33,846 bases of DNA. It comes from Candidatus Saccharimonadota bacterium (lineage in GTDB: Bacteria; Patescibacteriota; Saccharimonadia; Saccharimonadales; Saccharimonadaceae). This document shows positions 19,369 through 24,426 of the stretch, one piece after another. Made by a program: the position numbers and the translations under genes. Under the pieces are notes generated by a model. That model did no database searches and was not told the DNA's origin. It saw nothing but the letters and a program-made list of their open reading frames with translations. The first letter of the stretch is position 1, and every line of letters begins with the position of its first letter. The stretch lies in NCBI GenBank assembly GCA_024697865.1, contig JAILSC010000020.1:1-33846 (forward strand), given 5' to 3'.

Positions 19369-19705
19369 TGAGCCTGAAAGACAATCGCTTTATATAAGAG
19401 GAAAGTCCGGGCAACATAGAGCATGGTAGTCGCTAACAGCGACCGTCCGTAAGGATAGGGAAAGTACCACAGAAACAATACCGCCTAACTTCGTGTTAGG
19501 TAAGGGTGAAAAGAGTGAGGTAAGAGCTCACAGCGCGCGGTAGCGATACAGCGCGGAGGCAAACCCTACCTGTTGCAAGGAGTGCTAGGTCACCTTAGCT
19601 CGAGGATGCACGTTTACCGCTAGAGCGTTATAGCAATGTAACGCCAAGATAGATGATTGTCGCCCGTGCTTGCACGGGTACAGAACCCGGCTTACAGATG
19701 GCTCA
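19369..19705 (+). ncRNA. rnpB: RNase P RNA (type A-like)
   Basis: About 337 nt. The conserved blocks are present: P1 TGAGCC at the 5' end with GGCTCA at the 3' end, GAGGAAAGTCCGGGC with CAACATAGAGCA (P4/J region), AGGGTGAAA, GAGGCAAACCC, and ACAGAACCCGGCTTACAG near the 3' end. It processes the 5' ends of tRNAs; the sequence CAGAA..CCCGGCTTAC is the universal P4-P2 return strand. Ends are set from P1 and the promoter, so they are accurate to a few bases. Confidence 0.95.
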
Positions 19706-19709
19706 TATC

Positions 19710-22872: not shown

Positions 22873-22901
22873 TTGACATTAGCATTTTTAGACGATATAA
22901 T
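22873..22901 (+). promoter_or_regulatory. Strong promoter of a small RNA
   Basis: -35 TTGACA (22873-22878), exactly 17 bp, -10 TATAAT (22896-22901): a consensus promoter, and among the strongest in the window. No protein gene follows. Confidence 0.85.
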
Positions 22902-22907
22902 AGGGGT

Positions 22908-23017
22908 AGCTTTTGAATAAAAAAATTATGCAAAAGCCAAAAATAAAAATTTAGCCAAAATAACTCCACACTCTACACAGAAGACCGGTTTTCCTCGCAG
23001 TTACCGGTCTTCTTTTA
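22908..23017 (+). ncRNA. Small RNA of unknown function, about 110 nt
   Basis: Runs from the consensus promoter to a textbook terminator. The body is A-rich with little internal pairing (long A runs at 22917-22966). The 3' part is the terminator hairpin, whose 13-nt loop contains TTTTCCTCG. That loop is complementary to the GAGGAA(A) in several ribosome sites of this window (before 233, 6693, 17256 and gyrA at 29671). I do not recognise a known family. A short frame of eight codons at 22928 has no ribosome site. Confidence 0.65.
22979..23017 (+). terminator. Terminator of the small RNA
   Basis: AGAAGACCGGT (22979-22989) pairs perfectly over 11 bp with ACCGGTCTTCT (23003-23013), followed by TTTATAT. 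Confidence 0.85.
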
Positions 23018-23040
23018 TATTTGGCACTAAAAATAGTCAC

Positions 23041-23077: not shown

Positions 23078-23428
23078 TGGTGGAGCTGCCGGATACTGCC
23101 TCCGGGTCCGAAACATCACTGGGTCATGATTCTACGTGCGTAGTTTTCTGTTTTGTCTTGGCATAAAATAGTAGCGGCAGAAAACGAAACTTGCTAGTGC
23201 CATGGCTAATTTTCGAATTATCACTCGCCATTTTGATAACCTTATTTCCGTAATATGATAATTTTGATCCTACGGAACCTTAGACCAAAACCAGCCTAAT
23301 ATTTAGGCATAAGCCGGCATGTAAGCTACATGCGCGGTTTGCGTGTTTTTAGCACTTATTGAATACTTACGGTATCTAATCGGCACGCCTCACGACTGTT
23401 AATATCCCGTCTAAGCTTTGTCAGCCCC
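23078..23428 (-). ncRNA. ssrA: tmRNA (trans-translation RNA)
   Basis: 351 nt. The tRNA-like ends are clear: 5' GGGGCTGAC with AGACGGGA, 3' TTTCGGACCCGG and CAGCTCCACCA. The resume codon is most likely the GCT at 23353, giving the tag AKNTQTAHVAYMPAYA and a TAA at 23305; the context AGTGCTAAAAAC is like that of Firmicute tmRNAs with AKN tags. tmRNA frees stalled ribosomes and marks the product for proteolysis. Two features are odd: the T-loop reads GGCAGTA where nearly all tRNA-like domains have TTCRANY, and the D-region has TTAGAC for the usual TTCGAC. The tag ends in AYA, not the common ALAA or AVAA. Confidence 0.93.
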
Positions 23429-23468: not shown

Positions 23469-23585
23469 GCCTCAAGTCGACACTAATTAATGGACGGCTA
23501 AAACTAGGTCTAAATTCCCGTATCGTTGTAAAAAACACAACAAAATGAACAACAAATTAGAACAGGGAAGAAATAGGGCTTATGT

Positions 23586-23598
23586 TGTAATAATTACA
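23586..23598. promoter_or_regulatory. Perfect 13-bp palindrome, possible operator
   Basis: TGTAATAATTACA lies 10 bp before the first -35 box of the structured RNA promoter, between it and ssrA. Its position suggests a regulator site, but no regulator can be named. Confidence 0.35.
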
Positions 23599-23607
23599 CC
23601 GAAAAAG

Positions 23608-23649
23608 TTGAATAAATCTATTGCTTTTTTATAATTTTTATGCTAATAT
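23608..23649 (+). promoter_or_regulatory. Overlapping promoters of the structured RNA
   Basis: Two arrangements fit: TTGCTT (23621-23626), 17 bp, TGcTAATAT (hexamer 23644-23649); or TTGAAT (23608-23613), 16 bp, TATAAT (23630-23635). Start sites would be near 23656 or 23642. Confidence 0.6.
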
Positions 23650-24046
23650 CAAATCAGCTGTGATAGCTCAAACAAAAACGAAAAATAAAGGCAAATTAAC
23701 AAGATGAAAAAGTTCAAAACGTAACCTTAGCGGGCGAAAAGGTAATTTCTAGCCATAAATTACACCTAGGAGTTACCTAGAGCTCCGCTAAACGGAATCC
23801 ATGTCTCTGGGGATTCTGAAAAAGCGTAGAGCGCGGAAGTCAAATCCTTCATTAGTACTTTAGATTAACATAAACAAGAGTGAAGGGAAAAGGCTGACAA
23901 GGATCGTGCTTCACCCAGTGTGAAGCGGTCAAAAGGAAAGGCGGATCAGGGCTCTGGCCAATAGTAAAGATCACAAGCACCGGATAGCCCCCCGCCTCCT
24001 CCTAGTCATTAGGAGGGAACAGAGAACAAAAAACTTGGGGGCAATC
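23650..24046 (+). ncRNA. Large structured RNA of unknown class
   Basis: About 390 nt without a reading frame but with a chain of clear helices. TTAGCGG (23727-23733) / CCGCTAA (23785-23791) encloses GTAATTT/AAATTAC (23742-23748/23757-23763) and CTAGG/CCTAG (23766-23770/23776-23780). Next come GAATCC/GGATTC (23795-23800/23811-23816), CCTTCATT/AGTGAAGG (23846-23853/23879-23886), GCTTCAC/GTGAAGC (23908-23914/23920-23926), GGCGG..GGGCT/AGCCC..CCGCC (23940-23953/23986-23996) and CCTCCTA/TAGGAGG (23998-24004/24010-24016). GCCCCC and GGGGGC (about 23987-23992 and 24036-24041) can pair over the last arm. Linkers are A-rich on this strand, as expected for unpaired RNA. The 3' end is not fixed, as no U-run is seen. 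It is not RNase P, tmRNA, 6S or SRP RNA by any signature I know. Confidence 0.65.
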
Positions 24047-24057
24047 AACCAGATGTA

Positions 24058-24066
24058 TGATATAAT
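24058..24066 (+). promoter_or_regulatory. Extended -10 promoter, leaderless gene
   Basis: TGaTATAAT with hexamer 24061-24066, 6 nt before the ATG at 24073. Confidence 0.65.
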
Positions 24067-24072
24067 GAGAAT

Positions 24073-24426
24073 ATGAAGCATAACCGCATTATTCTCGTCT
24101 TGGGCATTATAGGACTCGCAGCTTTAACCTTAATGCTGATTATCACCTCTCCGACCGAAATCGGTCCTTTAGGTGTTTTGTTATTTTTTACAACACTATA
24201 TTTAGTGTTTTTTTGTGCCGTCACGTTATTGCTCCAAGCTTTTGTCCGGTTGGCTTTTAAACGTAAAGAACTTAAAAACAAAGATTATCTTTACGCTGCT
24301 ATTCTAGCTTTTGGTCCGATTATGCTCTTAATGGCCCGTTCTTTCGGGGCTATCGACCTCTGGACTGTCGCTCTTACGGTTATTTTCTTGTGTTTGGCTG
24401 AATTTTTGGTTTACAAAAGAATCTAG
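24073..24426 (+). CDS. Small membrane protein of unknown function
   Basis: 117 residues with four hydrophobic segments (about 5-25, 32-58, 74-91, 96-113) and a basic loop FKRKELKNK between the second and third. The pattern of two hairpins with the basic loop inside suggests both ends are cytoplasmic. I do not recognise the family. Translation starts at the expected 5' end of the mRNA (leaderless). It is followed by a gene with its own promoter, then the T4SS-like ATPase, so it may be part of the same system, though that is only proximity. Confidence 0.75.
   Translation: MKHNRIILVLGIIGLAALTLMLIITSPTEIGPLGVLLFFTTLYLVFFCAVTLLLQAFVRLAFKRKELKNKDYLYAAILAFGPIMLLMARSFGAIDLWTVALTVIFLCLAEFLVYKRI

Follow-up and report, generated by a model that had tools for sequence, protein, structure and literature searches.

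A structured RNA of Saccharimonadales and its predicted pairing with the start of the infA mRNA

The plus strand of the window (the whole stretch of 33,846 nucleotides analysed here) encodes, at 23650-24018, a structured RNA of Saccharibacteria that has no match in Rfam. Judged from its sequence, it is a free-standing, highly structured molecule with its own predicted promoter, and in this genus it probably acts in trans as an antisense RNA, controlling the synthesis of translation initiation factor IF-1 at the 5' end of the infA mRNA. Patescibacteria make up a large share of bacterial diversity, and full-text searches of a literature collection turned up no description of a structured regulatory RNA from these bacteria. 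The RNA described here occurs across an order and has a concrete candidate target in trans: it is complementary to the mRNA of a translation factor that is essential and universal, and the match falls exactly on the predicted start of that mRNA. If this is true, minimal epibionts have in this RNA a means of adjusting their translation capacity, and the function of its order-wide core becomes accessible to test.

Fold, promoter and elements of the RNA

The plus-strand fold of 23650-24046 has a minimum free energy of -110.9 kcal/mol (z = -4.0), a stability equalled by none of 100 shuffles, and the fold of the minus strand of the same region is unremarkable (z = -0.8). G.U outnumber A.C combinations at the model pairs (119 vs 26; 68 vs 32), an excess that marks the plus strand as the RNA strand. 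An Rfam search of the region gave no credible match even at E <= 10. At the gathering score the RNA is unmatched, and the only Rfam families found in the window lie elsewhere: RNase P (19369-19709, +), tmRNA (23078-23428, -), tRNAs and the start of a 16S rRNA. The initial annotation had proposed an unrecognised, promoter-led RNA on this strand, distinct from RNase P, tmRNA, SRP and 6S RNAs, and in all these respects it is borne out. The predicted promoter keeps its position and sequence across the aligned homologues of the genus, and the RNA is expected to start near 23656. U-rich, terminator-like 3' ends occur in other genera and families, and none is evident in the window. The elements of the RNA and its flanks are as follows.

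23525-23541, no strand: palindromic operator-like site GTTGTAAAAAACACAAC, upstream of the RNA
23584-23600, no strand: second palindromic operator-like site GTTGTAATAATTACACC, one mismatch to the pattern
23621-23649 (+): predicted promoter; -35 TTGCTT at 23621-23626, 17-nt spacer, extended -10 TG-C-TAATAT at 23641-23649
23655-23669 (+): 5' mini-hairpin AGCU-GUGAU-AGCU, followed by an A-rich leader (23670-23689)
23687-23724 (+): SD-like AAAGG (23687-23691) and micro-ORF ATG AAA AAG TTC AAA ACG TAA (MKKFKT*, 23704-23724), conserved in the genus
23727-23733 / 23785-23791 (+): helix H1, closing the antisense domain, with compensated changes on alignment A1
23741-23777 (+): covarying helix H2, GGUAAUUU / GAGUUACC, bearing the antisense loop
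23749-23763 (+): antisense segment CUAGCCAUAAAUUAC, 15 nt, perfect complement of infA mRNA +1 to +15
23782-23832 (+): putative pseudoknot H3, GCUC 23782-23785 with GAGC 23829-23832
23794-23816 (+): extra hairpin between H1 and H3, strain-specific, absent or variable in relatives
23835-23841 / 23892-23898 (+): helix H4, enclosing H5, with significant covarying pairs
23843-23853 / 23878-23888 (+): helix H5, within H4, with significant covarying pairs
23901-23930 (+): covarying hairpin H6, ending in a GCGGUC(A) motif, part of the order-wide core
23940-23996 (+): long 3' stem H7, in the order-wide core, with GCGGYCAAUAGU..GCCGGAU as internal motif; its covariation over the order is the strongest
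23995-24016 (+): terminal hairpin CCUCCUA/UAGGAGG
24035-24072 (+): predicted promoter of P117, TTGGGG and extended -10 TGATATAAT (24058-24066), ending six bases before the ATG at 24073; leaderless-type mRNA
24073-24426 (+): P117, small membrane-protein-like gene, first of a P117-P159-TraG/HerA-like ATPase cluster, syntenic in the family and not part of the RNA

The 5' mini-hairpin is AGUC/GACU in most members of the genus, GUGC/GCAC or GCUUUU/AAAAGC in other genera and GUAAG/CUUAC in other families. H2 covaries (GGCAAUU/AAUUGCC, GGUUAUU/AAUAGCC, AGCUUA/UAAGCU, GGUAG/CUACC) around a fixed loop, the changes being seen in other genera and in one member of the genus. H1 is paired in only 84% of cells on A1, partly because some rows are shifted. 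H3 is tentatively assigned as a pseudoknot, being mostly invariant, with GCUU/AAGC in three homologues. Some members of the genus (loci L075-L078) carry insertions of about 250-950 nt in the RNA between H3 and H4. The GAGCGGUCAG of H6 is nearly invariant in other genera and families. The terminal hairpin had been noticed in the initial annotation as an imitation of an SD and anti-SD pair; the hairpin itself stands, but this interpretation over-reads it, as the sequence is strain-specific and relatives have CYCCAA/UUGGGG.

The region had also been taken as frame-less, which the micro-ORF contradicts; the match of the RNA to infA likewise escaped the initial annotation. An SD, an ATG, a few codons and a stop are found in 81.5% of 92 nonredundant leaders of the genus, and the same arrangement of SD, ATG and stop appears in 3.0% of dinucleotide shuffles (300 shuffles; maximum 9.8%). 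By this arrangement the frame has the look of one that is translated. Its stop keeps a nearly fixed distance upstream of the antisense loop, 26 nt before UAGCC in 50 of 85 cases, and Pro (43), Thr (21) and Lys (19) account for most of the final codons. In the window H1 begins two bases after this stop, and a terminating ribosome and H1 should therefore exclude each other.

Covariation and distribution across the order

On a plain MAFFT alignment of 19 sequences (A1), the source of covariance model R1, 93.6% of cells are paired and 30 of 59 pairs show double changes. None of 500 shuffles is as good, and slid controls pair in at most 46.4%. A tree-aware null was also applied, custom-written and R-scape-like (it is not R-scape), in which the substitutions on an inferred tree are redistributed over positions. 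Against it, a model-fitted alignment gives 10 significant pairs, and a structure-blind alignment of 68 sequences gives 14 pairs at E <= 0.5, all of them model pairs, six of which reach E <= 0.05. For the order-wide 3' domain (A5), 94.5% of cells are paired, with 265 double-change cells (0 of 500 shuffles), and the tree-aware null leaves 9 pairs at E < 0.05 and one more at 0.055. Two of the checks suggested in the initial annotation, an Infernal/Rfam search and a covariation analysis, favour a new RNA: Rfam has no match, the helices change in a strongly compensatory manner, and homologues extend over the order.

Of 36 genomes from the same genus, 33 gave a homologue by blastn, and 24 genomes from other families gave none; the named homologues are Candidatus Saccharibacteria, many from ruminant gut. 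R1 matches 116 of 393 genomes of the order and reaches other genera of the family. R3, which models the 3' domain on sequences from other genera, matches 125 of 295 genomes, in 69 of the 143 sampled genera of the order and in many families, and among 380 genomes of the phylum it matched none outside the order. The window itself scores only 11.3 bits with R3, and its H7 is linked to the order-wide stem via relatives in the genus that score up to 37 bits. In five TraG loci from the same class the GCGGTCAG motif is absent, and in one genome (G252, 99% complete) infA is present and the RNA was not found. A virus-borne element was considered and rejected: two short pattern matches in viral contigs were unconfirmed by R1.

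Outside the family of the window organism the RNA consists of a compact core, about 130-200 nt long, with a 5' hairpin with an A-rich loop (GUAAG..CUUAC around AAAACAAAAA), the GAGCGGUCAG hairpin (CGCUC..GAGCGGUCAGUCA), a long 3' stem (GGACGGUAAGCGCU-AAUAGU-AGCGGAUUUACCGUCC) and an intrinsic-terminator-like hairpin. From this it follows that the RNA of the window is the core plus an inserted domain (H1-H5). On this comparison, the pseudoknotted domain is an insertion made in the family of the window organism, and the core is old and common to Saccharimonadales. Most of the core-RNA loci checked are without the infA loop. Since the core is found in many genera that lack this loop, it must originally have served something other than antisense control of infA. 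It is possible, if somewhat doubtful, that the main role of the RNA in the order is a housekeeping one, as part of an RNP or as a scaffold, and that the infA loop is a late and secondary addition in one clade. The conservation of the core in 69 of 143 genera, mostly without the loop in the loci checked, fits such a role, but no partner protein or activity is known for it, and it does not conflict with an antisense function in this genus.

The antisense loop and the start of infA

The loop CUAGCCAUAAAUUAC is invariant in the genus, except for two G.U-compatible variants. Its complement, GTAATTTATGGCTAG, is found at least twice (with at most one mismatch) in 33 of 40 genomes of the genus, once in the RNA gene and once at another site. 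A reversed control pattern has a single match in each of 5 genomes, and genome size alone predicts about 0.001 exact sites per genome. All 20 of the other sites that were fetched are starts of infA, the gene for translation initiation factor IF-1 (TIGR00008, E = 1.4e-33), which, where the context was examined, belongs to a secY..infA-rpmJ-rpsM-rpsK-rpsD cluster. The target comprises nucleotides +1 to +15 of the mRNA, GUAAUUU-AUG-GCU-AG, and includes the start codon. At 20 of 20 sites a -10 element, TGnTAnnnT, precedes the match by 6 nt; positions -6 to -1 are variable and +1 to +15 invariant. This succession of invariant -10, variable spacer and invariant +1 to +15 indicates that the match begins at the predicted +1, and the infA mRNA is expected to have its 5' end at the G of GUAAUUUAUG. 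In the window's own genome infA is cut by a contig end (contig C7 begins inside it, with first bases TKGRISFRLKD* in the second frame), so that its 5' end is missing from the comparison.

The predicted duplex of loop and infA mRNA has an energy of -20.5 kcal/mol. The loop has a mean unpaired probability of 0.75, against 0.40 for the whole RNA, and its CUA end is able to pair with UAG in the stem. Taken as sequence, complementarity to the distant infA start is conserved beyond chance, and with it the potential to pair. Loop variants in two genomes (G024, G030) keep the pairing via G.U. In g42 the loop is changed (CUACUGGCCAUAAAUUACC), and pairs with infA through one G.U and an extension (-28.9 kcal/mol); in g32 infA has gained an N-terminal insertion, yet the exact 15-nt start is kept. 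By these sequences the pairing holds also in g32 and g42, and probably in g63. In g34 (G164) infA keeps GUAAUUUAUGGCC and the RNA is without the loop, which means that pairing with the RNA cannot be the sole reason for the conservation of this leader; in g38 the infA leader and the RNA both differ. No clean two-sided compensation between loop and infA was seen, the covariation in trans consisting of G.U-tolerant changes and one extension. The CACCUUA motifs of other genera have no convincing match to infA, and infA was not in the sampled stretches of g26 and g51. As a separate observation, g32 has, at L339 (G174), another mRNA with these 15 nt (GUAAUUUAUGGCUAG) at its start; it encodes a putative membrane protein and is a possible second target.

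In the antisense mechanism proposed, the pseudoknotted domain would hold up the H2 hairpin loop, which would pair with the first 15 nt of the infA mRNA and cover both its 5' end and its start codon. With a leader of only 7 nt, such a duplex should keep ribosomes off and lower the synthesis of IF-1. The effect is most likely repressive, as a message of this kind would offer the ribosome no other loading place. We infer that the RNA is transcribed, that it pairs in vivo, that it represses rather than activates, and that the micro-ORF takes part. A ribosome ending on the micro-ORF, with its footprint over H1, may alter the display of the loop, a coupling that would tie IF-1 supply to initiation capacity. 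A tentative extension, which we put forward as a suggestion, is a translation-initiation homeostat: ribosomes on the micro-ORF would read initiation capacity, IF-1 included, and their footprint would remodel H1/H2 so that the loop silences or releases the infA mRNA from its first nucleotide on. If true, a genome-reduced epibiont would here govern an essential initiation factor through an RNA circuit.

The same pairing could be real and act positively, the RNA shielding the 5' end of the mRNA from decay or presenting it to ribosomes. That the duplex covers the extreme 5' end, and that the micro-ORF draws ribosomes to the RNA, are consistent with this; burial of the start codon behind a 7-nt leader usually blocks initiation, however, and makes a positive action unlikely.

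Genomic neighbourhood and relation to known systems

The locus is syntenic, in the order IF3 (-), ComM (-), tmRNA, the RNA, P117 and the TraG/HerA-like ATPase, and the TraG homologue starts about 1 kb downstream of the RNA in 20 of 20 R3 loci fetched. P117 has no Pfam match. In other genera the interval between tmRNA and P117 (L201-L219) is 1.2-2.2 kb of intergenic DNA, mostly without long ORFs. A position directly upstream of the cluster in all loci checked would suit a cis-acting leader, riboswitch or attenuator, of P117-TraG. We consider this very improbable, as a predicted extended -10 promoter belonging to P117 itself lies six bases before the ATG, the RNA outside the genus terminates ahead of the gene in what look like terminator U-runs, synteny extends in any case to the entire neighbourhood (IF3, ComM, TraG), and the conserved loop matches infA. 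Least credible of all is that the complementarity is a neutral relic, such as an inverted copy of the infA start: part of H2 (GUAAUUU) does resemble the infA leader, but the match is kept in three genera with pairing-preserving changes, and the loop is invariant while its flanking helix covaries.

Several other features of the neighbourhood are of interest in their own right. The palindromic pattern has 7 matches in the window within 3 mismatches, against 0.74 expected, two of them just upstream of the RNA, and operator-like palindromes also precede its promoter in relatives within the genus. Genome-wide, GTTGTAAAAAWTACAAC has 8 exact sites as well as near matches; some seem to lie within genes (tgt, dnaX, the pheT region) and others are upstream of rpmJ-rpsM and obgE; it could be a chromosome-organising or a regulator site. 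A second putative small RNA (22873-23022, +) has a consensus promoter (TTGACA-17-TATAAT), a 5' hairpin (AGCUUUUG..CAAAAGC) similar to the one that the main RNA has in other genera, an A-rich linker (UUUAGCCAAAAUAACUCCACAC) and an intrinsic terminator, and is about 75-95% identical in most family loci compared. The tmRNA is on the strand opposite to the RNA here, and on the same strand in some members of the genus and in the checked loci beyond it, from which the block of tmRNA and second small RNA seems to have been inverted.

tmRNA, RNase P RNA, 6S RNA and SRP RNA are likewise large structured bacterial RNAs, and tmRNA adjoins the present one. A divergent tmRNA or RNase P was rejected, since there is no covariance-model match and genuine copies of both are present separately; 6S has no match in the organism's own genome. 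SRP RNA was rejected as well: RF00169 was found in 0 of 40 genomes of the order and the Ffh M domain (PF02978) in 0 of 30, with positive controls. By this sample the SRP pathway as such appears to be absent in Saccharimonadales.

With GOLLD, ROOL and OLE (PMC12286853) and raiA RNA it shares the status of an orphan structured RNA first recognised by comparative genomics; it differs in having no Rfam match and in that a base-pairing target is identified. Leader-peptide and ribosome-sensing RNAs such as tnaC resemble it in their very short ORF, often ending Pro-stop, and a structured element at a fixed distance, whereas the regulated gene here would be in trans. The closest functional likeness is to trans-encoded antisense sRNAs that pair with translation-initiation regions, such as RNAIII of Staphylococcus aureus. 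Points in common are an own promoter, a structured RNA, a hairpin loop that matches the start region of an mRNA encoded elsewhere and, possibly, a small peptide coded in the same RNA. No relation in sequence or structure to a known family was found. The target here is IF-1, with pairing from the exact predicted 5' end of a nearly leaderless mRNA, a pseudoknotted domain bears the loop, and the RNA belongs to a lineage of Patescibacteria. We propose that this is a new RNA family with a new target, of the antisense-sRNA kind in function and outside every described family.
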